64,000 nucleotides of DNA from Coriobacteriales bacterium OH1046 (GTDB taxonomy: Bacteria; Actinomycetota; Coriobacteriia; Coriobacteriales; Atopobiaceae): the NCBI GenBank assembly GCA_004010535.1, contig RQYE01000002.1, forward strand, positions 186,001-250,000, in the 5' to 3' direction. Below the pieces are notes generated by a model. It did not search any database. It worked only from the letters and a program-made list of their open reading frames with translations, and was not told where the DNA came from. Positions 11,710 through 28,411 of the stretch are shown here, in pieces (position 1 is the first letter of the stretch; each line of letters starts with the position of its first letter). The position numbers and the translations under genes are program-made.

Positions 11710-14700
11710 ATGGCTAGAAAATTCAAGTCCATGGATGGTAACAACGCTGCGGCGTGGGTGTCGTACGCGTTCACGGAGGTGGCGGGCATCTACCCCATCA
11801 CGCCGTCCAGCCCCATGGCCGACTATGTCGACCAGTGGGCAGCCGCAGGCCAGAAGAACATCTTCGGCACGACCGTCAAGGTCGTCGAGATGCAGTCAGA
11901 GGCCGGTGCCGCAGGTGCCGTCCACGGCTCGCTCGGTGCCGGCGCCCTCACGACGACCTACACGGCGTCCCAGGGCCTGCTGCTCATGATCCCCAACATG
12001 TACAAGATCGCAGGCGAGGGCCTGCCGTCGGTCTTCCACGTGTCCGCCCGCACCGTGGCCACCCACGCGCTCAACATCTTCGGCGACCACTCCGACGTCA
12101 TGGCCTGCCGCCAGACCGGCTTCGCCATGCTTGCCGAGGGCAGCGTCCAGGAGGTCATGGATCTCTCGGCCGTCGCGCACCTCTCCGCCATCAAGGGCAG
12201 CGTGCCGTTCATCAACTTCTTCGACGGCTTCCGCACCTCGCACGAGATCCAGAAGGTCGCCGTGTGGGATTTCGAGGACCTTAAAGAGCTGTGCGACATG
12301 GATGCCGTCCAGGCCTTCCGCGATCACGCCCTCAACCCCGAGCATCCGCATGCGCGCGGCTCCCACGAGAACGGCGATATCTTCTTCCAGCACCGCGAGG
12401 CCTGCAACCCCGCCTACGATGCGCTCCCCGCCGTCGTCGAGGAGTACATGGACAAGGTCAACGCCAAGCTGGGCACCGACTACCACCTGTTCGACTACTA
12501 CGGCGCGAAGGACGCGGACCGCGTCGTCGTCTGCATGGGCTCGTTCTGCGAGGTCCTCGAGGAGGTCGTCGACTACCTCAACGCCCGTGGCGAGAAGGTC
12601 GGTCTCGTCAAGGTCCGCCTGTACCGCCCCTGGTCCATCGAGCACTTCATCGCCGCCCTGCCCAAGACCGTGAAGGCCGTCGCCGTCCTCGACCGCACCA
12701 AGGAGCCCGGCTCCATCGGCGAGCCCCTCTACCAGGATGTCGTCACCACGTTCTTCGAGACCGGCAAGTCGGGCATCAAGGTTATCGGCGGCCGCTACGG
12801 TCTCGGCTCCAAGGACACGCCCCCCGCATCCGCCTTCGCCGTGTTCGCCGAGCTCGCCAAGGACGAACCCAAGCGCGAGTTCACCATCGGCATCGTCGAC
12901 GACGTCACCAACCTCTCCCTCGAGGAGATGGCCGACGCCCCCAACACGGCCGACCCCTCCACCATCGAGTGCAAGTTCTGGGGTCTCGGCGGCGACGGCA
13001 CCGTGGGCGCCAACAAGAACTCCATCAAGATCATCGGCGACCACACCGACAAGTACGTCCAGGCCTACTTCCAGTACGACTCCAAGAAGACCGGCGGCGT
13101 CACCGTCAGCCACCTGCGCTTCGGCGACACGCCCATCCGCTCGCCCTACTACGTGACCAAGGCCGATTTCGTGGCATGCCACAACCCGTCCTACATCACC
13201 AAGGGCTTCAAGATGGTCCGCGATGTCAAGCCCGGCGGCAGCTTCCTCATCAACTGCCAGTGGACCGTCGATGAGCTCGAGCATCACCTCAACGCGGCCG
13301 CCAAGCGCTACATCGCCGAGAACAACATCCGCGTCTACCTGATCAACGCCATCGACCTGGCCATGCAGGTGGGCATGGGCAAGCGCACCAACACCATCCT
13401 CCAGTCCGCCTTCTTCGCCCTCTCCGGCGTGCTGCCGCAGGAGGATGCCATCAAGTACATGAAGGATGCCGCCGAGCACTCCTACGCCAAGAAGGGCCAG
13501 GCCATCGTCGAGGCCAACTGGAAGGCCATCGACGCCGGCGCCACCGCCTTCACCGAGATCGAGGTTCCCGAGTCCTGGAAGACCGCGACCGATGCACCCT
13601 CCGCGCTCACCCTCGAGGGCCGCGCGGCCATCGTCAAGCAGGTCAAGGAGCTCCTGCATCCGATCGATCTGATGGACGGCGACAGCCTGCCCGTCTCCGC
13701 GTTCAAAGACGTCGCCGACGGCCAGTTCGAGCTCGGCGCCTCCGCCTACGAGAAGCGCGGCGTCGCAGCCTTCGTGCCGCGTTGGGACCAGACCAAGTGC
13801 ATCCAGTGCAACAGCTGCTCCAATGTCTGCCCGCATGCCGCTATCCGCCCGTTCGCGCTCTCCGAGGAAGAGGCTGCCGCAGCGCCCGAGGGTATCAAGC
13901 TGCTCGATCTCACGCCCGCCAAGAAGTTCCCGGGCCTGAAGTTCTCCATCGCCATCTCCCCGCTCGACTGCATGGGCTGCGGCGTCTGCGTGCGCGTCTG
14001 CCCCAAGGAGGCCCTGTCCATGGCCGGCCAGGAGGAGGAGCTTGCCGAGCAGGCCAACTTCGACTACTGCGTCGCCAACGTCACCGAGAAGGACGGCGTC
14101 GTCGCCAACAACCTCAAGGGCATCCAGTTCAAGAAGCCGCTCCTCGAGTTCTCCGGTTCCTGCGCGGGCTGCGCCGAGACCGCCTACGCCCGTCTCGTCA
14201 CGCAGGTCGCGGGCGACCGCATGTTCATCTCCAACGCCACCGGCTGCTCCTCCATCTGGGGTAACCCGGCTGCCACCTGCCCCTATACCACCAACGCCGA
14301 CGGCCATGGCCCCGCATGGAACAACTCGTTGTTCGAGGACAACGCCGAGCATGGCTTGGGCATGGCGCTCGGCTACAAGGCCGTCCAGAACAAGATCGTC
14401 GAGCAGACCGCCCAGCTCCTCCAGAAGGAGGGCGTGCCCGAGGCCGTGAAGGAGACCGCGACGGCGTGGCTCGAGTCGCGCGACGACGCCGTGGCCAGCA
14501 AGGCTGCCGCTGCCGCCTACATCGCCGCCCTCGAGGAGTGCGGCTGCGACGATGCCAAGGCCATCCTCGCCGATAAGGCCTATCTCACCAAGAAGTCCTT
14601 CTGGATCTTCGGCGGCGACGGTTGGGCGTACGACATCGGCTTCGGCGGCCTCGACCACGTGCTCGCATCCGGCGAGAACGTCAACGTCTTCGTCTTCGAC

Positions 14701-15261
14701 ACCGAGGTCTACTCCAATACCGGCGGCCAGGCTTCCAAGGCTTCCAACATCGGTCAGGTCGCGCAGTTCGCCGCCGCTGGCAAAGAGGTCAAGAAGAAGA
14801 GCCTCTCCGAGATCGCGATGAGCTACGGCTACGTCTACGTTGCCCAGATCGCCATGGGCGCCAACCCCGCTCAGACGTTGAAGGCCATCCAGGAGGCCGA
14901 GGCCTACGACGGCCCGTCGCTCATCATCGGCTACAGCCCCTGCGAGATGCACTCCATCAAGGGCGGCATGACCCTGTGCCAGGACGAGATGAAGAAAGCC
15001 GTCGAGTGCGGTTACTGGAACCTCTTCCGCTTCAACCCCGCCGCCGAGCCCGGCAAGCAGTTCACGCTCGATTCCAAGGAGCCGGCGGGCGGCTATCGGG
15101 AGTTCCTGATGAACGAGGCGCGCTACAATCGCCTCACCCGCGAGTTCCCCGAGCGCGCCACCGAGCTGTTCGCCAGAAACGAGGAAGCTGCCATGGCCCG
15201 CTACCAGCACCTGCTGCGCCTGAAGGACCTCTATGCCGCGCCCAAGATCTCCGAGGAGTAG
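11710..15261 (+). CDS. nifJ: Pyruvate:ferredoxin (flavodoxin) oxidoreductase
   Basis: 1183-residue single-chain PFOR, a normal length for the fused enzyme. It oxidises pyruvate with CoA to acetyl-CoA and CO2 and reduces ferredoxin. Domains in order: N-terminal pyrimidine-binding and transketolase-like domains (to about 410), the gamma domain, two 4Fe-4S ferredoxin motifs (Cys697 onward, CIQCNSCSNVCP; Cys754 onward, CMGCGVCVRVCP), and the TPP-binding C-terminal domain with the proximal-cluster cysteines from CAGC at 818 and FGGDGWAYDIGFGG. The start follows GGAGAGG. Codon use is strongly biased to C/G third positions, suggesting high expression. It is central to fermentative energy metabolism and stands as a single gene with its own leader and terminator. 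Confidence 0.97.
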   Translation: MARKFKSMDGNNAAAWVSYAFTEVAGIYPITPSSPMADYVDQWAAAGQKNIFGTTVKVVEMQSEAGAAGAVHGSLGAGALTTTYTASQGLLLMIPNMYKIAGEGLPSVFHVSARTVATHALNIFGDHSDVMACRQTGFAMLAEGSVQEVMDLSAVAHLSAIKGSVPFINFFDGFRTSHEIQKVAVWDFEDLKELCDMDAVQAFRDHALNPEHPHARGSHENGDIFFQHREACNPAYDALPAVVEEYMDKVNAKLGTDYHLFDYYGAKDADRVVVCMGSFCEVLEEVVDYLNARGEKVGLVKVRLYRPWSIEHFIAALPKTVKAVAVLDRTKEPGSIGEPLYQDVVTTFFETGKSGIKVIGGRYGLGSKDTPPASAFAVFAELAKDEPKREFTIGIVDDVTNLSLEEMADAPNTADPSTIECKFWGLGGDGTVGANKNSIKIIGDHTDKYVQAYFQYDSKKTGGVTVSHLRFGDTPIRSPYYVTKADFVACHNPSYITKGFKMVRDVKPGGSFLINCQWTVDELEHHLNAAAKRYIAENNIRVYLINAIDLAMQVGMGKRTNTILQSAFFALSGVLPQEDAIKYMKDAAEHSYAKKGQAIVEANWKAIDAGATAFTEIEVPESWKTATDAPSALTLEGRAAIVKQVKELLHPIDLMDGDSLPVSAFKDVADGQFELGASAYEKRGVAAFVPRWDQTKCIQCNSCSNVCPHAAIRPFALSEEEAAAAPEGIKLLDLTPAKKFPGLKFSIAISPLDCMGCGVCVRVCPKEALSMAGQEEELAEQANFDYCVANVTEKDGVVANNLKGIQFKKPLLEFSGSCAGCAETAYARLVTQVAGDRMFISNATGCSSIWGNPAATCPYTTNADGHGPAWNNSLFEDNAEHGLGMALGYKAVQNKIVEQTAQLLQKEGVPEAVKETATAWLESRDDAVASKAAAAAYIAALEECGCDDAKAILADKAYLTKKSFWIFGGDGWAYDIGFGGLDHVLASGENVNVFVFDTEVYSNTGGQASKASNIGQVAQFAAAGKEVKKKSLSEIAMSYGYVYVAQIAMGANPAQTLKAIQEAEAYDGPSLIIGYSPCEMHSIKGGMTLCQDEMKKAVECGYWNLFRFNPAAEPGKQFTLDSKEPAGGYREFLMNEARYNRLTREFPERATELFARNEEAAMARYQHLLRLKDLYAAPKISEE

Positions 15262-15298
15262 CGCTTCTCGCAAGCAGCGCACGTATCGAGCACGCACA

Positions 15299-15326
15299 GG
15301 CCCCGGTTTCCCGCCGGGGCCTTTCT
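15299..15326 (+). terminator. nifJ terminator
   Basis: GGCCCCGG and CCGGGGCC flank TTTCCCG and are followed by TTTCTT. Confidence 0.85.
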
Positions 15327-15427
15327 TGTGACACGCCCAGCGTGACAAATGACCTGTCCCCTTGTCACGCAGGGGCCTTTCTTGTGACACGCCCAGCGTG
15401 ACAAATGACCTGTCCCCTTGTCACGCT
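15316..15427. repeat. Tandem 56-bp repeat carrying two copies of the 29-bp REP
   Basis: The block from GGGGCCTTTCTTGTGACACG to the REP is present twice with period 56 (15316 and 15372). Each unit ends in the REP (15341-15369 and 15397-15425). The REP starts CGTGACAAATGACC and ends TGTCCCCTTGTCACG; its 8-base ends CGTGACAA/TTGTCACG are complementary. The first unit takes in half of the nifJ terminator, so the duplication arose across it. Confidence 0.9.
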
Positions 15428-15464
15428 GTTCCCGGTTGCACGCTTAGCGAACCGTGCGCACGTA

Positions 15465-15498
15465 TCGCGAACCGTACGGTTCGCGAGCGGTGCCAGCG
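15465..15498. repeat. 22-bp perfect palindrome and left flank repeat
   Basis: Bases 15465-15486 are a perfect palindrome (TCGCGAACCGT mirrored). Bases 15476-15498, starting ACGGTTCGCGAGCGG, match 17065-17087 at 22 of 23 positions. The two matches lie at either side of the ATPase gene in the same orientation. Confidence 0.8.
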
Positions 15499-15500
15499 GC

Positions 15501-16895
15501 ATGCGCGAGCTCGACAGGTATTGCGAGCTCAAGCGCCCGGAGTTCGTCGTTGTCTATGGCCGTCGCAGGGTGGGGAAAACCTATCTCATCCGAGAGTACT
15601 TCCACGGGGCATTCTCGTTCTATGCGACGGGGGTGGCTGGGAGGAACAAAGCCTCGCAGCTGGCTGCCTTTTGCGCAAGCCTGAAACGGTATGGCGGTAG
15701 AGGCGATGCCGGTACGTGGCTCGAGGCGTTCGAGGAATTGAGGGTCCTGCTCGAGGATCAGGATGTGGCGCGCGACGCCAAATGCGGGAAGAGGGTTGTG
15801 TTCATCGATGAGCTTCCTTGGCTGGATACGCAGCATTCGGGCTTTCTGACCGCGCTCGATTTTTTCTGGAATAGCTGGGGATCCGCCCAAGAGGAGCTTC
15901 TTCTCATCGTTTGCGGTTCGGCCACATCTTGGATTGTGGAAAACCTGTTCGCGAATCGGGGAGGGCTGCACAACCGCGTTACGGGTCGCATCTTCCTCGA
16001 GCCGTTCACGCTTGGGGAATGCGAGCAGTACTACCGGGCCAACGAGATCGAGCTCAGCAGGCGCGAGATGATCGAGTCGTATATGGTGTTCGGCGGCATC
16101 CCCTTCTACCTTGACTTGCTCGACAGGCGCTTGGGGCTTGCACAGAACATCGACAGGCTCTGCTTCTCCAAGAAGGGACAGCTCCGGGGGGAGTTCGAGG
16201 AGTTGTTTAGGTCGCTTTTCAGAAAGGCGGATAGGCATATCGCCATAGTCCGCGCTCTGCACACGAAGGGATCGGGTGCCACACGGGAGGAAATCATCGG
16301 CCTTTCGGGAATCGGGGACGGCGGGGCGCTCTCAACCAATATCGAAGAGCTCGAGCAATGCGGCTTCATCCGATCCTATCGCGATTTCACGAGGACATCG
16401 CGTGGCAAACTATATCAGCTCATAGACCCGTTCACGCTGTTCTGGCTCCGTTTTGTCGAGGGATCGGCAGACGAGCACTGGTGGAGCGCGAACTATGGCA
16501 GCGCACGGCTTCGCGCTTGGAGCGGGCGTGCGTTCGAGTTGGCCTGCCTACTGCATGTTCCGCAGATGCTGCGTGCGCTCGGGGTATGGGGCGTATCCGT
16601 TGATGCGTGCGCGTGGCGGAGCAAGAAGTCCAGTCTCGGCGCGCAGATCGATTTGGTTCTCGACCGTGCCGATGGCGTTGTCAACCTTTGCGAGATGAAA
16701 TTCTCGGATGGCCCGTTTGCGATCGATAAGGCTTGCGATGCATCGTTGCGCGCCAAGCGGTCGGTATTCGCAGAGGAGAGCAAGACGAGAAAAGCTCTCC
16801 ATATCACCATGGTGTGTCCGTACGGTATAGGAGAGACTGCGTATCGGTGGACGCCGCAGTCTGTTATCACGGGAGATGATCTGTTCGCCTTGTGA
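15501..16895 (+). CDS. AAA ATPase with C-terminal DUF234 nuclease-like domain, 5' end unusual
   Basis: 464 residues from the ATG at 15501. Walker A is VVYGRRRVGKT and Walker B is VVFIDELPWL, followed by CGSATSWI, all typical of the archaeal-type ATPase family. The C-terminal region carries GAQIDLVLDR...LCEMKFS, a PD-(D/E)XK-like arrangement described for DUF234. Family members usually begin with an FxGR...EL segment before the P-loop. Here that segment is missing and the upstream reading frame is repeat-derived, so the N-terminus may have been lost or rewritten. No convincing ribosome-binding site precedes 15501. The frame stays open to 15405 through REP sequence. Function is unknown; such proteins occur sporadically and are often part of mobile gene pools. 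Confidence 0.8.
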   Translation: MRELDRYCELKRPEFVVVYGRRRVGKTYLIREYFHGAFSFYATGVAGRNKASQLAAFCASLKRYGGRGDAGTWLEAFEELRVLLEDQDVARDAKCGKRVVFIDELPWLDTQHSGFLTALDFFWNSWGSAQEELLLIVCGSATSWIVENLFANRGGLHNRVTGRIFLEPFTLGECEQYYRANEIELSRREMIESYMVFGGIPFYLDLLDRRLGLAQNIDRLCFSKKGQLRGEFEELFRSLFRKADRHIAIVRALHTKGSGATREEIIGLSGIGDGGALSTNIEELEQCGFIRSYRDFTRTSRGKLYQLIDPFTLFWLRFVEGSADEHWWSANYGSARLRAWSGRAFELACLLHVPQMLRALGVWGVSVDACAWRSKKSSLGAQIDLVLDRADGVVNLCEMKFSDGPFAIDKACDASLRAKRSVFAEESKTRKALHITMVCPYGIGETAYRWTPQSVITGDDLFAL

Positions 16896-16930
16896 CGTCC
16901 GCGGAGAGGGGTCCTCGGGCTGCGGAAAAG

Positions 16931-17003
16931 CGTGACAAACAACCTGTCCCCTTGTCACGCATGTCCCCTTGCCCCGTGACAAACGACCTGTCCCCTTGTC
17001 ACG
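16931..17003. repeat. Two REP copies right of the ATPase gene
   Basis: Copies at 16931-16959 (AAC variant) and 16975-17003 of the 29-bp REP with CGTGACAA and TTGTCACG ends, in the same orientation as the pair at 15341 and 15397. Confidence 0.9.
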
Positions 17004-17064
17004 GTTCGCGTGGACGATGCCTCTGCCCCCCGTCCACGTTGGACGATCCACCCTCCCCGGCTGC

Positions 17065-17087
17065 ACGGTTCGCGAGCGGAGCCAGCG
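17065..17087. repeat. Right flank repeat of the ATPase gene
   Basis: Direct copy of 15476-15498 with a single difference, T to A. With the REP pairs it makes the ATPase gene a segment bounded by matching repeat blocks. Confidence 0.75.
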
Positions 17088-17101
17088 AGCTTGCAGTCTG
17101 C

Positions 17102-17132
17102 TATGCTATGCATATCTGCTTTACCGTAAAGC
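17102..17132 (+). promoter_or_regulatory. Promoter and operator of the toxin-antitoxin operon
   Basis: GCTTTA and TAAAGC (17118-17132) form a dyad around CCG, directly upstream of the ribosome-binding site AGGAGAGGG. TATGCT at 17102-17107 may be the -10. A dyad over the transcription start fits autorepression by a ribbon-helix-helix antitoxin. Confidence 0.5.
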
Positions 17133-17145
17133 AAAGGAGAGGGAT

Positions 17146-17517
17146 ATGGGCGCATCGGCTACAGCTCAGATCAACGTGAGGATCGACCGCGAGCTCAAGG
17201 AAGCGGGCGACCGCGAGCTCGAGCGCTTGGGTATAACGCCCTCGCAGGCAGTGCGCGCGCTTTGGGAGAAGTTCTCCGAGGGCGGACAGGGTTCGGAAGA
17301 TGCTCGTCGCGCACTTATCGGCATGGGTGGGGCGGCCGGAGCAGGAACGGCGCAGAAGGCCAAGCTCGCCGCGCTCGATCGGTTCGGAGCATCGCAAAGG
17401 AGCTTCACCCAGATGCTCGAAGATGCGGGAATCGACCCTTATACCTTCGAAGCCATGGAAGATGAGGAAGTGCTCGAAGCACGCTACGAGCACCTTCTCG
17501 AGAAGTACGGGAAGTAG
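17146..17517 (+). CDS. RelB/DinJ-family antitoxin
   Basis: 123 residues. The N-terminal ribbon-helix-helix (residues 5-45) reads AQINVRIDRELKEAGDRELE then GITPSQAVRALWE, the standard DinJ/RelB pattern. The C-terminal half is rich in Gly, Ala and Glu and would wrap the toxin. The start at 17146 is set by AGGAGAGGG; the frame stays open further upstream only through REP sequence. The PIN-domain gene follows after two bases, so translation is coupled. DinJ-type antitoxins usually pair with a RelE/YafQ toxin, so this pairing is unusual. Confidence 0.88.
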   Translation: MGASATAQINVRIDRELKEAGDRELERLGITPSQAVRALWEKFSEGGQGSEDARRALIGMGGAAGAGTAQKAKLAALDRFGASQRSFTQMLEDAGIDPYTFEAMEDEEVLEARYEHLLEKYGK

Positions 17518-17519
17518 CC

Positions 17520-18017
17520 ATGGACGATGCCCGTAAGATGAGGGTCCTTCTCGATACCAACGTCTGGCTCGACTATCTCTTGCTGGGGCGTTCCGGCAGG
17601 GATATCGCGGAAGAGCTGATCAGGCGCTGTTCCTGCGGGGATGTCCTACTGCTCTATGCTCTTCACGCGATTCAGGATGTGTTTTTCCAGGCCGGGGTCA
17701 CCTACAAGCGGATGCTGTGCGCGGATGGCGTCGAGATCGACGATGCGTGGGGCCGCGCCATCAGCGACCAGGCGTGGGAGTGTGCGCGCACGATGAACGA
17801 AGTCGCGACGCTTGCGGGGATGGATCAGGGCGACCTCTGGCTCGCGTTCAAATATCGGGAACTGCATCCGGATTTGGAAGACGATCTTGTCATCGCCGTC
17901 GCGCAACGCGCGGAGGCGGATTACCTCGTGACGTCGGATTGCAAGCTCATAGCACGGTCTCCCGTTGCCGCGCTCACGCCAAGGGACATGCTCACCGTGC
18001 TGAAGGCGCTGGGATGA
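17520..18017 (+). CDS. PIN-domain ribonuclease toxin
   Basis: 165 residues. The PIN fold is marked by LLDTNVWLDYLL near the N-terminus (Asp12), an acidic pair in LEDDLVIAVAQR, and DYLVTSDCKLI near the C-terminus, together supplying the Mg-binding carboxylates. In PIN toxins these cut tRNA or mRNA. The start at 17520 is two bases after the antitoxin stop; an internal ATG at 17538 is possible. The partner is a ribbon-helix-helix antitoxin of RelB type rather than VapB or an AbrB-type protein. Confidence 0.88.
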   Translation: MDDARKMRVLLDTNVWLDYLLLGRSGRDIAEELIRRCSCGDVLLLYALHAIQDVFFQAGVTYKRMLCADGVEIDDAWGRAISDQAWECARTMNEVATLAGMDQGDLWLAFKYRELHPDLEDDLVIAVAQRAEADYLVTSDCKLIARSPVAALTPRDMLTVLKALG

Positions 18018-18257
18018 TCCGAAGAACCGCAGCGCTCAACGTCTGGTATCCAAGGCATGTCGCTCGCGCGGATATACCGAGGGGGGCTTCCCAGCTCGAA
18101 ATTCATCGACGTGGCGCTCGGTCAAGGGGCGCGCTTGCTCATAAGGCGATCCTCGGACAGGGGTATACGCGGTCTGATGGGGCGGCAATCCGAGCGGCGT
18201 TGGATTCGGATGGGTCATAATCTGATCCAGGCAGGAAAGGCGAAGCGGGGGCGCGGC

Positions 18258-19502
18258 ATGCACACGTCCGGGGAAACCGACATGCAGGGCAAGGCGAAGC
18301 GGGGGCGTGGCTGGGCGATCGCGCTGTCCGTGCTTGCGGCAGCAGCGGTCCTCGGCTTCGGCGGTTACCATCTCTGGCTCCATCGCGATGTCCGCGTCTA
18401 CGTCAACGGGGTGCCGGTCGATATCAGGTACCGCTCGTCGTTCGGGGAGATATGCGATGAGGCGGGCGTGGTGCCCGAAGCGGGCGACCTCTATTCCATA
18501 GCGGGCAACCTCATCGCGACGGGAGGCGGCGGGCCCTTCACAGTCTCCCTCGACGGTGTCGAGCTCTCGGAAGCGCAGCTCGATGCGGTGGAAGTCGAGG
18601 GCGGTGAGTCCTTCACGGTGCGCGATGGGGATGATGCGGTTGAGGATTCCGAGGTGGTCGAGCGCATCACGGCCCCTCGGCTCGTCCCCGCCGAGAGGCT
18701 CGCGGCGGTGACGTATGTGAGCCAGTGGGGGGCGAACGGCATCGACCGCGTGCGCGTGGGGGCGGTTTCGGGGGAGGAGATCCTCGAGGAGGTCGTGCAG
18801 GAGCCTCGGGACTGCGTGCTCGCCTCGGTGAACCCGGTTCCGTCGGATGGGCGGAGGCTCGTGTGCCTGACCTTCGACGACGGTCCCAGCCCGTATACCG
18901 CCCAGGTGCTCCAGATTCTCGAGGAGAAGGGCGCTTGTGCGACCTTCTTCGTGCTCGGTTCGAACGTCGGCCCCTGGTCCGATGCCATCCAGGGGCTCGA
19001 GGCTGCGGGCTGCGAGGTCATGAGCCATACGATGAACCACCGGAACCACTATGCGACCACCTCGGATGAGACCTATCGGGAAACGGCGGATGCGTTCGCT
19101 GCCCTGCGCGACTGCGCGGGGGTCTACACCTCGGTGATCCGCCCGCCCTACGGTAACTGGAACGAGCACTGCTGGATCAGCTCGCGCGGGACCATGAGCG
19201 CGTCGGTGATCTGGAACGTCGATAGCCGCGACTGGGAGCTGCCCGGTGCGGACGCCATCGTCGAGAACTGCACCTCGGGCATCGAGAACGGCGACATCAT
19301 CTTGCTGCACGATGGCGGGGGAGACCGCTCGCAGGATATCGAGGCGCTGCCGCGCATCATCGACATCCTGCGCGAGCAGGGATTCGAGCTCGTCACGCTT
19401 TCCGAGCTGATGGATGCGGATGACCGCATTCCCGACGAGGCGGCCCGGCAATACGCTCCCATGCCCGAAGACTGCGCATGGCCCGCACAGATCGCGGAGT
19501 AG
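18258..19502 (+). CDS. Membrane-anchored polysaccharide deacetylase (NodB domain)
   Basis: About 414 residues. One membrane helix (WAIALSVLAAAAVLGFGGY) near the N-terminus anchors an extracytoplasmic protein. A small domain follows (VRVYVNGVPVDIRYRSSFGE...), resembling the beta-grasp YabE-type (DUF348) modules found in cell-wall enzymes. The NodB deacetylase core spans about residues 195-395. Its motifs are TFDDGPSPYT (catalytic and metal Asp), SHTMNHRNH (metal His), RPPYGNWN, DSRDW and LLHDGGGDR. It probably deacetylates N-acetyl sugars in peptidoglycan or surface glycan. The start is uncertain: 18258 and 18282 both lie ahead of the helix, and 18282 has GGGGAAA upstream. A short direct repeat (GGCGAAGCGGGGGCG at 18239 and 18292) spans this start region. 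Confidence 0.88.
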   Translation: MHTSGETDMQGKAKRGRGWAIALSVLAAAAVLGFGGYHLWLHRDVRVYVNGVPVDIRYRSSFGEICDEAGVVPEAGDLYSIAGNLIATGGGGPFTVSLDGVELSEAQLDAVEVEGGESFTVRDGDDAVEDSEVVERITAPRLVPAERLAAVTYVSQWGANGIDRVRVGAVSGEEILEEVVQEPRDCVLASVNPVPSDGRRLVCLTFDDGPSPYTAQVLQILEEKGACATFFVLGSNVGPWSDAIQGLEAAGCEVMSHTMNHRNHYATTSDETYRETADAFAALRDCAGVYTSVIRPPYGNWNEHCWISSRGTMSASVIWNVDSRDWELPGADAIVENCTSGIENGDIILLHDGGGDRSQDIEALPRIIDILREQGFELVTLSELMDADDRIPDEAARQYAPMPEDCAWPAQIAE

Positions 19503-19807
19503 GGTTCCGGAACCCGGCGCAAGCCCTCCCAAGGAGGCGAGATTAACCCTCACGTTCAGGGTGAGGCAATGCGGATAGCCGGCTGCGGCAGGGGCGGATG
19601 CCGGGTTTGGGGAGCCTGTTTTATCGAAGAATCCCCTTTCGGCATTTTTTCGGGCATTTTTCGGATTCCTTTCTGCGGGGATGAAAGGTAGAATTGGCAC
19701 ATCTGTAGGGATTGAGAGAAGGCTTCAACATCTTTTTCTGTACCGAAGGTCTGTTCACATGCGTATTCCGGAGCAGTGCGTGCTGTAGCGGGGAAACGGA
19801 GCATCCT
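19503..19807 (+). other. Intergenic region upstream of the adhesin
   Basis: No gene is seen in these 305 bases. CCTCAC/GTGAGG near 19545 forms a weak hairpin. A T-rich stretch follows, with a possible -10 TAGAAT at 19689-19694. The adhesin start codon is preceded by GGAG at 19798-19801. Confidence 0.5.
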
Positions 19808-22800
19808 ATGGGATCGAAGAGTAGGAATAGGGTATTCGCGCTGGTCGCGACGGTGATGGTGGCGATAACCACCGCGCTTGTCGGGTTCGGCGGGCTGGGA
19901 ATCGCCGAAGGGGAACCAACCGCGACCCCTCCCGGAACGGCCAAGACGCTGACGGACAACGGCGACGGAACCTACACGCTCTCCCTCAGCGTGACGGGCA
20001 GGGCGGAGAGCTCTTCAACGTCCAGCAAGGCGGACGTCATCGTGGTGCTCGACCGATCGGGTAGCATGCGTTACGACCAAGCGGGGCACAGTCCGGACAG
20101 TTGGCAATATTCGGGTCCGAGCAGGCTCTCTGTCGCCACAAGCGCTGTGAACAGCCTTGCCGGGCAGCTGCTTGCCAACAACACTGCGGATAATCCCGAC
20201 AGGGTGCAGCTCTCCCTCGTCACCTTCTCGAGCACGGCTTCGACGGATATCACAGGGACGACAAGCTTGAGCCAATTCCAGAACAGGGTGAACAGCATCA
20301 CCGCCAACGGGGGTACGAACTGGGAGGATGCCCTTCAAGATGCCCATGCGATCGACACGCGCGAGGGCGCTAACGTCTATGTGATCTTCGTCTCCGACGG
20401 CAACCCGACCTTCAGGAACACCCAGGGCGGGGGTTCCGGCTATGAGAATGCACAGCACGGCTCATATCCGAATTACTATTACGGCTCCGGCAACTCCGAC
20501 AACAACGGGAAGAACTTTCAGTATGCGCTGGTGCAGGCACAGGCTATCGTCAACGCTGGAAAGATCTTCTACTCCATTGGAGCGTTCGGCGATGCCACCA
20601 ATATGCAGAACCTTGCCACGCAGAGCGGCGCTCCCGCATCCAACTACTATGACGCGACGGATCAGTCGGCGCTCAACGCGGCCTTCGACAACATCATCGC
20701 CGAGATCACCAATGCCTTCGGCTACAAGGACGTGAAAATCGAGGACGGCATAACAAGCCTGACCTCGGCTCTTGTGAGAACCGATCCGAGCAGCTTCACC
20801 TACACCAGAAGCGGCGGCAGCTACGGTACCGGAACCGCGTGGAACGATGCGCCGGGGGCGTCTTATGCCGACGGCAAGGTCACCTGGGATCTCGGCACTA
20901 TGCAGCTGGAGAACGGGGTCACCTATACGGTCAGCTTCAAGGTATGGCCGTCGCAGGAGGCCTATGACCTCGTAGCCGACCTCAACAACGGGTTTGTGAG
21001 CTACGACGATTTAACGCCGGATCAGAAAGCGCAAATCGTGGCCGTTGCAGGCGGATACGGTCTGAAGACCAACACGGATGTGACCTTCTCGTATACCCAG
21101 ATCGAGACCATAACCACCAATCAGAGGCCCGAGGGCTTCGTCGAGGGACAGCCTGCCGCCGACGGCTTCACCTACACCTACGATGCGGCTACGGGAATCT
21201 ACACGGGCACCAAGGAAACACCGGGAAGCTCATCGACCGACAGCCCCGATCCGATGCCCCTGACCAACAGCAAGATGACGGTCACCAAGGCCTGGAACGA
21301 CTCGCTCGACCCGAACCAGCGCCCGGACAGCGTCACCCTGCGCATCAACAGGGACGATGACACCTATACAGACGTTGTGTTGAATGAAGCGAACAACTGG
21401 ACGCAGCAGATCGATGTGGCGCCGGGGCTGATTGCGGACGGGCAGACGCTGGAAACAGGCCATGATTACACGATCGAGGAAATCGACGGGGACTATCACT
21501 TCGAGCTCGATGCCGATCCGTTCCATCCGATGATCGTCGATGGCGTGCTGAAGAAGTCGGCGAATGCCTCTGGATCTGCGCAGGCTACTGCGACGGCGAC
21601 CAATGACTTGAAGGGTCGCCTCAACATAAGCAAGACCGTTACGCACAGCGCCGATACGACGCCGAATCCCAATCAGCTCTTCACCTACACGATCAAGGTT
21701 ACCGACAAAAAAGGCGATGACGTATGGTTTTCCATCGGTAACAGCAGCGGACCGATCGATGTATCGGGCGAGAACCGCGTAACGGGCGCTACGGTTGGCA
21801 CCGATCCTAAGTATTACTCTGCTGCATCCGGAGCCGTTATCACGGTTAAGATCAAAGGCGGGGAAAATATCCTCTTCCTCAACCTGCCCCATGGATCCAC
21901 CTACGAGGTCGAAGAAATCAACGTCCCATCCGCATATACCTGCACGGTCGCAAACGACGACAGTGAAGCCACGACCTCGGGCAACAAGACAAGCGGCAGC
22001 ATCGCTGCAAACACGCAATATAACGTGGCGTACACGAACGCCTATGCGGTAAGTCCGACTACGGCGACGATCCCGGTGACCAAGGTCCTGTCGATCCCAG
22101 CGGGTCAGACCGGACCCGAAGACATCACCGGCAAGTATACATTCACGTTGACGGCTGCAGCGGGCACGCCGATGCCGGCATCCGGCGGCGAGACCGTCAC
22201 CAACCCTGCGGCCACAGGTGGCACGGCCAGTTTCGGCAGCATCACCTATACGACTCCGGGTACCTACACCTACACGGTGACTGAGACCGGTAGCGTAGAC
22301 GGCGTCAACAACGATCCGAACGGAAACAAGACGATTACCGTTGTCGTGACGGACAACGGCGACGGCACGCTCAGCGCAACGGTGAATGGAGCCACTCCCA
22401 CGCCGACGAATCCGGCCGACACTACCTTCACCAACAGCTATGCGACGACTGAGGTGAGCGTGCAGATTCCGGTGACGAAGACGCTTGTCGTTCCATCCGG
22501 TCTGACCGGTCCCGGAGACATCACCGGCAAGTACACGTTTACGCTTGCTGCGCAGGATGGTGCTCCTATGCCGGCATCCGGCGGCGAGACCGTCACCAAC
22601 CCTGCGGCCACAGGCGGCACGGCCAGCTTTGGCAGCATCACCTATGACACGCCGGGCGAGTACACCTATACCATCACCGAGAGCGGCACCGTTGCCGGCG
22701 TGATCAATGACGGGATCTCCACCAAGACCGTTACCGTTACGGTCAGCGATGACGGCCATGGGCATCTGAGCGCCACGAGCAAGGGAGCGGACTCAACCGC

Positions 22801-25800
22801 CACGGAACCGAAGTCGAGCACGACTTTCACCAACACATACGGCGCAACGCCTGCTACGGCGAACATTCCTGTGAAGAAGGTTCTGAATGCAGCAAGCGGG
22901 CTCACGCCTCCCGACATCACGGGTGCGTACACGTTTACGCTGGCAGGAGTGACTGCAAATGCGCCGATGCCTGCGCAGACCACGCTGACCAACCCTGATG
23001 CCAACGGCGGTACGGTGACCTTCGGCGAGATAAGCTTTGACAGGATCGGCACCTATACCTACACCGTCAGCGAGAGCGGCACGGTCGATGGCGTCACGAA
23101 CGACAGCAGCGGAGCTAAGACAGTAGTTATAACGGTCACCGATAACGGCGCAGGTGCTCTGTCCGCGCAGGTCAGCGTGTCCGCCAACAATCCGGTGACC
23201 TTCACGAACACCTATACGGTCACGCCGACGACGGCCAGCGTGCCGGTGACCAAGGCGCTGTCCGTGCCCGCAGGGCTCACCGGGCCGGCTTCGATCAGGG
23301 AAGCCTACACCTTCACGCTGACGCCGCAGGACGGCGCGCCGGCAGCAGCCACTTCATCGGTCAAGAACCCCGCTGATAATGGCGGCACGGCCAGCTTCGG
23401 CGAAATCACCTTCACGGCGCCGGGGACCTACACGTATACGATCACGGAGGCCGGCGCTGTTGCCGGCGTCACCAACGACGCCGCCGCAGCTTCCGGCAAG
23501 ACCGTGACGATCGAGGTCAAGGACAACTCCGACGGCACGCTGACGGCGACGGTCAAGGGCGCCGACACAACGGCTGACAACCCGACAGCGAACACCACCT
23601 TCACCAACGTCTACGACGCCAGCTCGACGACGGCGACAATCCCGGTGACGAAGCTCTTGTCGTATGCATCGGGACTCACGCCGCCGGACATCGCAGAGCA
23701 GTACGAATTCACGCTCGCAGGCACCGGGAGCGCGCCGATGCCGGCTTCTGGCGGGGAGAAGGTCAAGAATCCTGACCCGGCAGGCGGCACGGCCAGCTTC
23801 GGCGAAATCACCTTCACGGCGCCGGGGACCTACACCTACACCGTGACCGAGTCCGGCAACGTGGCGGGCATCACCAACGACGACGCCGCAGCTTCCGGCA
23901 AGACCGTGACGGTCACCGTCACCGATAACGGCGACGGTACGCTGAGCGCGACCGTCGCAGGCGCCGACGGGCAGGGAGCGGACACGACGTTCACGAACAC
24001 CTACCGCGTCGAGCCCACGACGGCAAGCATTCCGGTAACCAAGAGGCTTTCCGTCCCCACCGGCTTGACCGGCCCCGACATCGCCGAGGCCTATACCTTC
24101 ACGCTGGCAGACTGGGACGAGGACGAGACGAGCTCTCCCCTTCCGGCGACGACCGAGCTCAAGAACCCCGACGCCGACGGCGGCACGGTGGCCTTCGGCG
24201 AGATCACCTATGCCGCACCGGGAACCTACACCTATACGGTAACCGAGTCCGGTACCGTTGCAGGCGTCACCAACGATGCAGCGGCGACCAAGACCGTGAC
24301 CGTCACCGTCACCGATAACGGCAACGGAACCCTGACGGCCACCGTCGCAGGTGCCGATGGACAGGGAGCGGGCACAACGTTCACGAACGCCTATGCCGTA
24401 AGCCCGACGACCGCGAGCTTCCCGGTCAAGAAGGTCCTGTCCGTGCCCGGAGGGCTCACCGGGCCCGACATCACGGGCAAGTACACCTTCACGCTGACGG
24501 CTGCAGAAGGCACGCCGATGCCCGCCGACGCCGAGCTCGCCAACCCCGACGCAGACGGCGGCACCGTGACCTTCGGGCCCATCACCTACAGCATGCCCGG
24601 TACCTACGCCTACACCGTGACCGAGTCCGGTACCGTTGCCGGCGTCACCAACGACGCGACGGCCGCCAAGACCGTCACGGTCGAAGTCGTGGACAACAAG
24701 GACGGCACGCTGAGCGCCACGGCGAGCTCCACGGACGCGAGCCCGCTCGCCTTCACCAACAGCTATGGCGCGTCCGGTTCCGTCACGCTGGAGGCCGCCA
24801 AGGTCGCCGTGGGCTTCGACCTCGCCGACGGGCAGTTCTCCTTCGAGCTGAGGGGCGCCGACGAGAGCGTGCTGCAGACCAAGCAGAACGACGGCGATGG
24901 CAAAATCGTGTTCGACGCCATCTCCTACAGCGCGGCCGGTACCTACAGCTACACGATCAACGAGGTCGTGGTTGAGGGCAACGGCATCGCCGAGGACACT
25001 CATGTGGCGAAGGTGACGGTCACCGTAGTCGACAACGGCGACGGCACCCTGACCGCGACGCCTGCCTATGAGGATGCGACCTTCACCAATAAGCACGGCG
25101 ACACCGAGAAGGACGTCGTGTCCGCCGCAGACACCGCAACCAGCGTCGACGGCGAGTTGGTCGCGGCCGGCGACACCCTGACCTACACCATCACCTACGC
25201 CAACAACACCAGCGGCGCGGCGACGGTCACCGTCACCGACACCATCCCGGCCAACACCACCTACGTTGCCGGCTCCGCCTCCGACGGCGGCGTCGAGAGC
25301 GGCGGCATCATCACCTGGACCATCCCGGACGTTGCCGCTGGCGCGACCGGCACCGTCACCTTCCAAGTGACCGTGAATGACGACGCCAACGGCGCCACTA
25401 TCGAGAACACCGCCACGGTCTCGGACGGCGAGAACCAGTCCAGCTCCAATGCCGTCACCACGAGCGTCCCGGTGAAGGACGTCCTGGACGACAGCGGCTC
25501 GGGTATCGACGGCGGCAGCGTGCAGGTGGGCGACACGCTCACCTACGAGGTCACCTTCACATTGACCGAGGACTGCACCTCCGTCGTCGTGACCGATGGC
25601 GTGCCCGCCAACACCACGCTGGTCGACGGCTCCGTCAGCGACGGCGGCACCGTGGCCGACGGCACCATCACCTGGGATCTGGGCGCCCTTGCGGCTGGAA
25701 CCTACACCGTGAGCTTCAAGGTGACGGTCGATGAGTTCGCTGCGGGTGCCGACGCCATCACCAACACGGCCTCCATCAGCGTGAACAACCACTCCGAGGT

Positions 25801-28411
25801 CGAGACCAACACGACGACCAACACGACCGAGACGGGCGGCCTGACCATCTCCAAGGAGATCATGGTCCCCGCAGGCTTTACGATCGACGAGAACAAGGCC
25901 TTCACCTTCACCGTCACCCTGGTCGACAAGAACGGCAATGACCTGACCGGCGCATATAACTACACCGGCAGCGCGGAGGGCACCATCTCCAATGGCGGCA
26001 CCATCCAGCTCAAGCACGGCGAGTCCGTCACCATCGAGGGCCTGCCCGCAGGTGCCATCTACACCGTCGTGGAGACCGCCGAGACCGGCTACACCGCCAT
26101 CCAAGATACCTTCACAGCAACCATCCCCAACGGCGGCGAGCCCGCAGTTGCGGCCTTCAAGAACAAGTACGGCGACGGCGCCTCCACTACCGCGAGCTTC
26201 CCGGTGAAGAAGGTCCTGTCCGTGCCCGGAGGGCTCACCGGGCCCGACATCACGGAAGCCTACACCTTCACGCTGACGGCGGCTGACGGCACGCCGATGC
26301 CCGCCGGCACCGAGCTCAAGAACCCCGACGCAGACGGCGGCACCGTGACCTTCGGGCCCATCACCTACACGGCTCCGGGCACCTACGCCTACACCGTGAC
26401 CGAGTCCGGCGACGTGGCCGGCGTCACCAACGACGCGACGACCACCAAGACCGTCACGGTGACCGTAACCGACAACGGCGACGGCACGCTGACGGCCACG
26501 GCGAGCTCCACGGACGCGAGCCCGCTCGCTTTCACTAATAGTTACTCCGTCAACCCGACGACGGCTACGATCACGGCCAGAAAGGTTCTGGAGCATGCGG
26601 ATCTCGCAGCTGGTGCATTCAACTTCGAGTTGAGCGCTGCCGATGGAACGCCGATGCCGGCATCTCCCAACGCGACGAACGCCGCTGACGGCACGGTGAC
26701 CTTCGGCGAGATCACGTATAGCGCACCGGGCGAGTACGCCTACACGATCAAGGAGACAGCCGGAAGCGCGACGTACTTCGACTACGATAGCTCGGAGAAG
26801 ACCGTGAAGGTCAAGGTCGTGGACAACGGCGACGGCACGCTGACCGCAACCGTGACAGGCGACGGCGAGGACGCCACCTTCACCAACACCTACCATGCCG
26901 GCAGCGACGAGATCTTCATCAACGCGGTCAAGAACGTGAACGGCCAGGCGGCATCTCAGAACATCTTCGAGTTCACCATCACCGCAGACGATGGCGGTGC
27001 CCTGCCCGATGAGACGACCGTTGCCAACAACGGCGGAAGCGTGACCTTCGGGCCGATCGCCTACGACACGAGCATCTTCGACGAGCCCGCTCCTGCTCCC
27101 GAGCCGAACGAGCCCGAGACGGTCAGCCTGACCTTCTCCCCTGATGACGGGATCGAAGGCGATACCCTGTATGCCGTGCCGTATCTGGACGGAATGGCCC
27201 AGGACGAGCTTCTTAGAGAGACGCGCAAGGACGATGAGGGCGTATGGCAGCCCATCACGTGGACTGGCCTGCCGAAAAACAATGACGAGGGCGACGAGAT
27301 TGCCTTCGAGGTGTACTATATGGTTGACGAAGATGCCACGCTTGTGCGCGCCAGCGGTCTTCTGCTCCAGCAGCTCGATGAAGAGCCGGCTGGCGAACCT
27401 TCAGAGCCTGCGGCTCCGAGGACCAAGGTCTTCCACTACACCGTCAGCGAGACGGCCGGCAGCGCGCCCGGCTACACCTACGACGGCCACAGCGAGACCG
27501 TGACCGTCACCGTGACCGACAACGGCGACGGCACGCTCGCAACCTCGGTCGCATACGACGGGGACGGTGCCGTCTTCAACAACATCTACGAGGCTTCGGG
27601 CTCTGCGACCATCCGCGCCGAGAAGGTCCTGGAGGGCCGGGATCTCGATGCGGGCCAGTTCGAGTTCGGTCTCTTCGAGGGCGACGAGCAGGTCGGAGAT
27701 CCTGTCGCAAACGATGCGGACGGCACCGTCACCTTCGAGGTTCCCTACCGTGTCGATGCCGGGAAGAGCGATGTCGGCACGCACGCCTATACCGTGCGCG
27801 AGCTGGGGACTGCGTCGACCGGATACACCTACGACAGCTCCGTCAAGGAAGCTACGGTAGAGGTCACGGATAACGGCGATGGCACGCTCGCAACCTCGGT
27901 CACGTATGGCGAGGACATGACCTTCACCAACACCTACAAGCCGTTGCCGACCGAGGTTGTGCTCGAGGCCGAGAAGGTCCTCAACGGCATGAACCTCGCC
28001 GCCGGCGAGTTCGGCTTCAGGATCGAGGATGAGGATGGCAACGTGGTGTCCAGCGGCACGAACGATGCCTCCGGCAAGATCACCTTCCCCGCGATCCCCA
28101 TCACGGAGGCGGGGACGTATACCTTCACCGCCTACGAGGTGAAGGGCAGCGTGGATGGCATCACCTACGATGAGACGCGCTTCACCTACGAGGTGGATGT
28201 CGCAGATGAAGGCGGGCAGCTGGTGATAACCGAGGTGAGGACGAATACCAACGTCGTGTTCACCAACACCTATACCCCGCCTGCGCCTCCGCCCGAGCCC
28301 AAGCCCGAGATCCCCAAGACCGGCGATGCAACCCCGCAGGTCGCGGCTATCGTGGCCCTCGGCGCGGGTCTCGCGATCCTCGGCGTGCTCCGCTATCGCA
28401 AGGAGAGCTAG
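19808..28411 (+). CDS. Giant sortase-anchored adhesin with VWA domain and FctA/Spy0128-type repeats
   Basis: 2867 residues. A signal peptide (1 to about 35) is followed by a von Willebrand A domain (about 55-330) with the MIDAS DRSGS from Asp82, then GGTNW and VSDGNP. A Cna-B-like domain lies near 489-600 and a DUF7601-like domain near 605-750. Thirteen pilin-type domains follow, starting near 752, 884, 1016, 1143, 1275, 1404, 1535, 1657, 2129, 2254, 2366, 2598 and 2716. Two DUF11-like domains and another Cna-like domain lie between 1768 and 2128. Most repeats show the Lys (PVTK), Glu (YTYTVTE) and Asn (TFTN) of FctA/Spy0128 domains that form Lys-Asn isopeptide bonds. The anchor IPKTG is at 2835-2839, then a hydrophobic helix and RYRKES. 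No sortase gene is nearby. It is probably a shaft-like surface adhesin with a VWA tip. Confidence 0.93.
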   Translation: MGSKSRNRVFALVATVMVAITTALVGFGGLGIAEGEPTATPPGTAKTLTDNGDGTYTLSLSVTGRAESSSTSSKADVIVVLDRSGSMRYDQAGHSPDSWQYSGPSRLSVATSAVNSLAGQLLANNTADNPDRVQLSLVTFSSTASTDITGTTSLSQFQNRVNSITANGGTNWEDALQDAHAIDTREGANVYVIFVSDGNPTFRNTQGGGSGYENAQHGSYPNYYYGSGNSDNNGKNFQYALVQAQAIVNAGKIFYSIGAFGDATNMQNLATQSGAPASNYYDATDQSALNAAFDNIIAEITNAFGYKDVKIEDGITSLTSALVRTDPSSFTYTRSGGSYGTGTAWNDAPGASYADGKVTWDLGTMQLENGVTYTVSFKVWPSQEAYDLVADLNNGFVSYDDLTPDQKAQIVAVAGGYGLKTNTDVTFSYTQIETITTNQRPEGFVEGQPAADGFTYTYDAATGIYTGTKETPGSSSTDSPDPMPLTNSKMTVTKAWNDSLDPNQRPDSVTLRINRDDDTYTDVVLNEANNWTQQIDVAPGLIADGQTLETGHDYTIEEIDGDYHFELDADPFHPMIVDGVLKKSANASGSAQATATATNDLKGRLNISKTVTHSADTTPNPNQLFTYTIKVTDKKGDDVWFSIGNSSGPIDVSGENRVTGATVGTDPKYYSAASGAVITVKIKGGENILFLNLPHGSTYEVEEINVPSAYTCTVANDDSEATTSGNKTSGSIAANTQYNVAYTNAYAVSPTTATIPVTKVLSIPAGQTGPEDITGKYTFTLTAAAGTPMPASGGETVTNPAATGGTASFGSITYTTPGTYTYTVTETGSVDGVNNDPNGNKTITVVVTDNGDGTLSATVNGATPTPTNPADTTFTNSYATTEVSVQIPVTKTLVVPSGLTGPGDITGKYTFTLAAQDGAPMPASGGETVTNPAATGGTASFGSITYDTPGEYTYTITESGTVAGVINDGISTKTVTVTVSDDGHGHLSATSKGADSTATEPKSSTTFTNTYGATPATANIPVKKVLNAASGLTPPDITGAYTFTLAGVTANAPMPAQTTLTNPDANGGTVTFGEISFDRIGTYTYTVSESGTVDGVTNDSSGAKTVVITVTDNGAGALSAQVSVSANNPVTFTNTYTVTPTTASVPVTKALSVPAGLTGPASIREAYTFTLTPQDGAPAAATSSVKNPADNGGTASFGEITFTAPGTYTYTITEAGAVAGVTNDAAAASGKTVTIEVKDNSDGTLTATVKGADTTADNPTANTTFTNVYDASSTTATIPVTKLLSYASGLTPPDIAEQYEFTLAGTGSAPMPASGGEKVKNPDPAGGTASFGEITFTAPGTYTYTVTESGNVAGITNDDAAASGKTVTVTVTDNGDGTLSATVAGADGQGADTTFTNTYRVEPTTASIPVTKRLSVPTGLTGPDIAEAYTFTLADWDEDETSSPLPATTELKNPDADGGTVAFGEITYAAPGTYTYTVTESGTVAGVTNDAAATKTVTVTVTDNGNGTLTATVAGADGQGAGTTFTNAYAVSPTTASFPVKKVLSVPGGLTGPDITGKYTFTLTAAEGTPMPADAELANPDADGGTVTFGPITYSMPGTYAYTVTESGTVAGVTNDATAAKTVTVEVVDNKDGTLSATASSTDASPLAFTNSYGASGSVTLEAAKVAVGFDLADGQFSFELRGADESVLQTKQNDGDGKIVFDAISYSAAGTYSYTINEVVVEGNGIAEDTHVAKVTVTVVDNGDGTLTATPAYEDATFTNKHGDTEKDVVSAADTATSVDGELVAAGDTLTYTITYANNTSGAATVTVTDTIPANTTYVAGSASDGGVESGGIITWTIPDVAAGATGTVTFQVTVNDDANGATIENTATVSDGENQSSSNAVTTSVPVKDVLDDSGSGIDGGSVQVGDTLTYEVTFTLTEDCTSVVVTDGVPANTTLVDGSVSDGGTVADGTITWDLGALAAGTYTVSFKVTVDEFAAGADAITNTASISVNNHSEVETNTTTNTTETGGLTISKEIMVPAGFTIDENKAFTFTVTLVDKNGNDLTGAYNYTGSAEGTISNGGTIQLKHGESVTIEGLPAGAIYTVVETAETGYTAIQDTFTATIPNGGEPAVAAFKNKYGDGASTTASFPVKKVLSVPGGLTGPDITEAYTFTLTAADGTPMPAGTELKNPDADGGTVTFGPITYTAPGTYAYTVTESGDVAGVTNDATTTKTVTVTVTDNGDGTLTATASSTDASPLAFTNSYSVNPTTATITARKVLEHADLAAGAFNFELSAADGTPMPASPNATNAADGTVTFGEITYSAPGEYAYTIKETAGSATYFDYDSSEKTVKVKVVDNGDGTLTATVTGDGEDATFTNTYHAGSDEIFINAVKNVNGQAASQNIFEFTITADDGGALPDETTVANNGGSVTFGPIAYDTSIFDEPAPAPEPNEPETVSLTFSPDDGIEGDTLYAVPYLDGMAQDELLRETRKDDEGVWQPITWTGLPKNNDEGDEIAFEVYYMVDEDATLVRASGLLLQQLDEEPAGEPSEPAAPRTKVFHYTVSETAGSAPGYTYDGHSETVTVTVTDNGDGTLATSVAYDGDGAVFNNIYEASGSATIRAEKVLEGRDLDAGQFEFGLFEGDEQVGDPVANDADGTVTFEVPYRVDAGKSDVGTHAYTVRELGTASTGYTYDSSVKEATVEVTDNGDGTLATSVTYGEDMTFTNTYKPLPTEVVLEAEKVLNGMNLAAGEFGFRIEDEDGNVVSSGTNDASGKITFPAIPITEAGTYTFTAYEVKGSVDGITYDETRFTYEVDVADEGGQLVITEVRTNTNVVFTNTYTPPAPPPEPKPEIPKTGDATPQVAAIVALGAGLAILGVLRYRKES
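26190..26541 (+). repeat. Internal near-identical duplication within the adhesin gene
   Basis: This segment closely matches 24411-24768 at the DNA level, including long identical runs such as AAGGTCCTGTCCGTGCCCGG and the 3' stretch before CTCGCYTTCAC. Other repeats in the gene differ much more at silent positions, so this copy is recent or maintained by gene conversion. Confidence 0.8.

Follow-up and report, generated by a model that had tools for sequence, protein, structure and literature searches.

A PDC-S27-type ATPase gene that has probably lost its 5' end by rearrangement at a local repeat in a Coriobacteriales genome

The region described here lies between a nifJ-type pyruvate:ferredoxin oxidoreductase gene and a polysaccharide deacetylase-like gene in the genome of Coriobacteriales bacterium OH1046, a 2.38-Mb draft in 19 contigs with a completeness of 98.57. 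The whole stretch of DNA analysed, 64 kb in length, is called the window (G000:C2:186001-250000). From left to right, the interval contains an intrinsic-terminator-like hairpin, two REP sequences, a perfect palindrome overlapping one copy of a 23-base sequence (the 23-mer), an ATPase gene, two further REPs, the other copy of the 23-mer and a toxin-antitoxin pair (relB and a PIN-domain gene). These features are collected in Table 1. Reading the surroundings by eye, we also noted a small palindrome (GCTTTACCGTAAAGC, window 17118-17132) immediately 5' of relB, which is a plausible operator for the toxin-antitoxin pair. Further to the right, window 19712-28411 is occupied by an open frame of 2899 residues; it contains numerous repeats that resemble one another, has IPKTGD at its end and probably encodes a giant surface protein.

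Table 1. Features of the nifJ-deacetylase interval (window coordinates)
Feature	Position	Strand	Basis or remark
nifJ-type pyruvate:ferredoxin oxidoreductase, left neighbour	11710..15261	+	Pfam POR_N, POR and TPP domains; syntenic in G002, G003, G004
Intrinsic-terminator-like hairpin, downstream of nifJ	15298..15322	+	
REP copy, left 1	15342..15368	+	Exact match
REP copy, left 2	15398..15424	+	
Perfect 22-bp palindrome	15465..15486	.	
Left 23-mer	15476..15498	+	
Truncation junction, start of homology to intact PDC-S27 proteins	15499..15506	+	Alignments; profile match from position 12
5'-truncated PDC-S27-type ATPase / PD-(D/E)XK-like gene	15501..16895	+	464 codons from ATG 15501
Walker A GRRRVGKT, intact	15558..15581	+	K in 87/87 homologues
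Walker B VVFIDELPW, intact	15795..15821	+	D in 87/87 homologues
D...ExK nuclease-like motif (QIDLVL, CEMKF), intact	16644..16703	+	D 86/87, E 87/87, K 87/87 homologues
REP copy, right 1	16932..16958	+	
REP copy, right 2	16976..17002	+	
Right 23-mer	17065..17087	+	22/23 identical to left copy
RelB/DinJ-like antitoxin	17146..17517	+	Pfam RelB; TIGR02384 under its cut-off
PIN-domain toxin	17520..18017	+	Pfam PIN_3
Polysaccharide deacetylase-like gene, right neighbour, start uncertain	18057..19502	+	Pfam Polysacc_deac_1; syntenic in G002, G003, G004

The longest open frame of the ATPase gene starts at ATG 15405, inside the second left REP, and comprises 496 residues. An earlier note, made from the sequence of the window, had labelled it a member of the AAA/DUF234 family. 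No DUF234 domain (which we take to be PF03008) is found in a Pfam search at E up to 0.001; the search gives ATPase_2 over its cut-off (E 1.3e-10) and AAA_16 and AAA_22 below theirs. The PADLOC profile PDC-S27, a single-gene phage-defence candidate, is matched with an E value of 2.2e-178 over profile positions 12-473 of 474, and is the better family label. The closest homologue in our collection, L054 from an uncultured Coriobacteriaceae bacterium (61% identity, among the best 80 of 339 homologues), is intact and aligns to the profile over 1-473. According to the part of the source available, PDC-S27 joins an ATPase domain to a PD-(D/E)-X-K member and is one of a set of candidates mostly still awaiting experimental validation (PMC12988326); an excerpt of another paper counts it with the frequent candidates in the rumen (PMC13356809).

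Apart from its first 11 positions, the whole profile is represented here, and the Walker A, Walker B and D/ExK motifs are kept. Conservation was scored in 87 homologues with E <1e-50, kept from 101 full-length candidate ORFs (14 were dropped). From the Met onward, the gene violates 4/94 of the columns that are 90% conserved (rank 71 of 88) and 3/77 of those that are 95% conserved (rank 78 of 88), which is about as in other members. Since violations are no more frequent than usual and the catalytic residues are intact, the loss described below looks recent. An AlphaFold model of the truncated protein has a pLDDT of 92.1, a value that does not bear on activity. Solved structures related by sequence are absent at E up to 0.01. 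In a fold search with the model, the nearest structures are the archaeal AAA+ ATPases PABY2304 (2qen, E 3.1e-12) and SSO1545 (2fna, E 1.3e-9), followed by ORC/Cdc6 and NLR ATPases; the two archaeal proteins differ in sequence (15-19% identity) and have shorter chains (350 and 352 residues).

What distinguishes the gene from PDC-S27 is its start, which has neither the N-terminal hhGRxxE motif nor a ribosome-binding site. In the 87 homologues the motif is almost invariant (R in 87/87, G in 84/87 and E in 86/87), and all three residues are absent here. The earlier note had pointed out that the usual FxGR start was missing and that repeat-derived sequence had taken its place; both observations are borne out. 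The in-frame codons at the motif position read VRFASGASG and derive mostly from the 23-mer, and intact family members, when aligned, keep the motif throughout and do not share the short N-terminus. The gapless match to L054 (FELGRLCETPRAEF) resumes at RELDRYCELKRPEF (RELDRYCE), which puts the junction no more than about 8 bp from the end of the 23-mer. Judged by its sequence, the gene is a truncated descendant of PDC-S27 and not an intact member, with a candidate defence role. In a structure of the related plant NLR ATPase NRC1, the adenine of the bound ADP is contacted at N6 and N1 by a valine belonging to the hhGRExE motif (PMC6713354). By analogy, loss of the motif would inactivate the ATPase product.

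Signals for expression were sought around the new start. There is no Shine-Dalgarno sequence before ATG 15501 or ATG 15405, whereas relB and nifJ have one; the start of the PIN gene likewise has none in the same test. No sigma-70-type promoter match occurs in 15200-17200, but this absence is weak evidence because only 0.8 chance matches (from shuffles) are expected there. RNA folding of the leader is not clearly beyond that of shuffled sequences (z -1.78).

The repeats around the gene are of two kinds. The earlier note had described two REPs followed by the same 23-base sequence on each side, and the positions are correct, although the 23-mers are not identical. It had also described the left 23-mer as part of a perfect 22-bp palindrome. 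This is indeed so: the left copy contains half of the palindrome, which is the longest perfect one in the 64-kb window (the next is 16 bp). Further copies of the 23-mer at ≤3 mismatches occur neither in the 2.38-Mb genome nor in the genomes of 35 other relatives, so the pair is a real local duplication. We rejected the possibility that it is a dispersed repeat: it is unique to the two ATPase flanks, and its 12-base core has 7 genome occurrences compared with 6 for the backward control, the other sites lying in unrelated sequence. The exact core pattern has no match in viral_contigs. A composite mobile element with target-site duplication would be expected to show identical end repeats together with its own transposase or integrase, a combination that is not seen here; the 23-mers differ by one base, and among the frames scanned against families the ATPase gene is the only recognisable one between them.

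The REPs, in turn, are part of the genomic background. At ≤3 mismatches the REP (GTGACAAAnnACCTGTCCCCTTGTCAC) has 91 copies genome-wide (backward control 0), and 54 REP clusters can be distinguished. The genome has 35 doublets: 29 show the inverted (-+) order, 1 is +- and 5 are ++. According to the portion of the paper available, REPINs are REP doublets in inverted order (PMC3116915). The present family resembles the REPIN/RAYT system described there in being palindromic and spread across the genome, in its predominantly -+ doublets and in including one REP-flanked Y1_Tnp gene; many dispersed copies, doublets and a RAYT gene are thus all present in the genome. The differences are that both doublets flanking the ATPase gene are direct (++), the minority order, and that the 23-mer does not belong to the REPs. 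Two REPs flank the only Y1_Tnp (RAYT-like) gene of the genome (G000:C12:120280-121200), which is the likely driver of the family.

Clusters less than 3 kb apart are about as frequent as chance would have them (6 observed and 3.5 expected from 2000 random placements, P about 0.13), so a gene sitting between two REP clusters is unremarkable. The left pair represents a local 56-bp tandem duplication (15302-15413, repeat family D2) that includes part of the nifJ terminator. The proposal in the earlier note that the blocks on the two sides are duplicates does not hold for their full length. In 269/500 cases shuffled sequences score at least as high as the segment separating REP 2 from the 23-mer, and in 489/500 as high as the segment preceding REP 1; neither alignment is better than random. 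A composite element formed from a duplicated REP-REP-23-mer block was rejected, since the two sides show more than chance similarity nowhere but in the REPs and the 23-mer region. We also considered whether bracketing by REPs might mark defence genes. A PDC-S01 ATPase gene (L144, G000:C2:10801-12662) is likewise bracketed by REP doublets; other bracketed stretches carry tlyA/nusB-like, glnA/gpmA-like and transporter ORFs (recognised by eye), DUF4143 matches in the genome number 11 over the cut-off and 13 in all, and the idea was rejected. The REPs beside the ATPase gene thus belong to the background formed by a REPIN-like family that is spread over the whole genome.

Comparison with congeners shows that the locus is variable. 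One genome (G001) has no match to the nifJ part, leaving three informative congeners (G002, G003 and G004). Both G003 and G004 have nifJ, psd (minus strand) and deacetylase in this order, with no ATPase gene or toxin-antitoxin pair between, so that the gene is absent from the site in two of the three, albeit in species other than the source. The earlier note had suggested looking for such sites in related strains. REP-like motifs are present in the corresponding intergenic stretch of G003. In the present genome the order is nifJ, ATPase, relB/PIN and deacetylase, and no match to the psd-like gene is found in G000 (the interval being window 15262-18057) or in G001. In G002, nifJ is followed by a block of other genes, an ATPase remnant (minus strand), psd (minus strand) and the deacetylase gene; the name psd and the identities of the other G002 genes come from a reading of ORF translations and not from a family search.

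The G002 remnant (L050:8944-9288, minus strand) is decayed, retains only a C-terminal part and lies beside psd in the opposite orientation to the gene here. Its two aligned pieces are about 98 nt apart, and its stop is followed by a REP-like hairpin. It is the nearest relative found (77% amino acid identity over 96 codons compared with 59% for L054 over the C-terminal 105 codons). Since it occupies the same interval, the gene was probably at the locus before the truncation. Between the two copies, second codon positions differ by 0.125 and third positions by 0.521, and selection has therefore probably acted on the gene during much of their divergence. These comparisons suggest that the gene was probably present at the locus in a shared ancestor and was later damaged on both lines, in G002 beside psd and here with loss of psd. 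Any order of events is tentative, given that the G002 copy is inverted and that the completeness of G002 is low (68).

We consider it probable that a PDC-S27-type gene was beheaded by a rearrangement at the 23-mer/palindrome, which left a recent remnant that is inactive or poorly expressed. The starting point would be a single-gene PDC-S27-type candidate (an AAA+ ATPase with an ORC/STAND-like fold and a C-terminal PD-(D/E)XK-like nuclease domain) situated in the variable nifJ-deacetylase interval. One breakpoint of the rearrangement would then have fallen at the left 23-mer/palindrome, and the upstream region, the ribosome-binding site and about the first 11-13 codons, including the hhGRxxE motif, would have been lost. 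We infer that this 5' part disappeared when psd was deleted or via recombination at the repeats. Some points run counter to this. The frame is intact for 464 codons and even stays open through the repeats as far as ATG 15405, so that a product is possible, and a simple deletion does not explain the opposite orientation of the G002 remnant.

The earlier note had instead favoured insertion by recombination within a repeat cluster, in which an ATPase fragment entered between REP/23-mer blocks and the insertion itself removed the 5' end. The gene-free sites in G003 and G004 agree with this part of the proposal, as do the 23-mers, found on both flanks and nowhere else, and the REP-like motifs already present in G003. 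The REP blocks, however, which are not copies of each other, are unsupported as the cause, and the G002 remnant in the same interval argues for an earlier presence of the gene, which makes an insertion of this kind unlikely. For the same reason a later deletion or rearrangement of a resident gene is a simpler account than damage done to the gene on insertion, and the event may have been one that also removed psd. It is somewhat more doubtful still that the gene is a functional short form, started at ATG 15501 or the REP-borne ATG 15405 and working without the hhGR motif. Such a form would account for an open frame in phase with both ATGs, for the retention of all other catalytic residues with no excess of unusual ones, and for the confident structural model; it is difficult to reconcile with a motif kept by every homologue, with the lack of a Shine-Dalgarno sequence and promoter match, and with the nifJ terminator upstream. 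A bolder version, in which the repeats rebuilt the 5' end, REP and palindrome supplying the start codon and N-terminus of a PDC-S27 protein without hhGR whose nuclease is regulated differently and which is kept by selection, strikes us as far-fetched. An assembly or binning artefact at the palindrome is very improbable: the junction does coincide with the strongest palindrome of the window in a draft of 19 contigs, but the open frame passes it in frame, and the contig, which measures 292 kb, is syntenic with congeners to the left and right of the site.

The likeliest interpretation is thus that a candidate defence gene, located in a variable part of the genome, has undergone ordinary decay by rearrangement. 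Two congeners have only psd in the interval, the third has an ATPase remnant from which most of the gene is deleted, and the ATPase gene here is beheaded but nearly whole; the locus provides a well-resolved example of the decay of a candidate defence gene between two core genes. It also illustrates that a profile search would call such a gene a full PDC-S27 match even though its first motif is gone.
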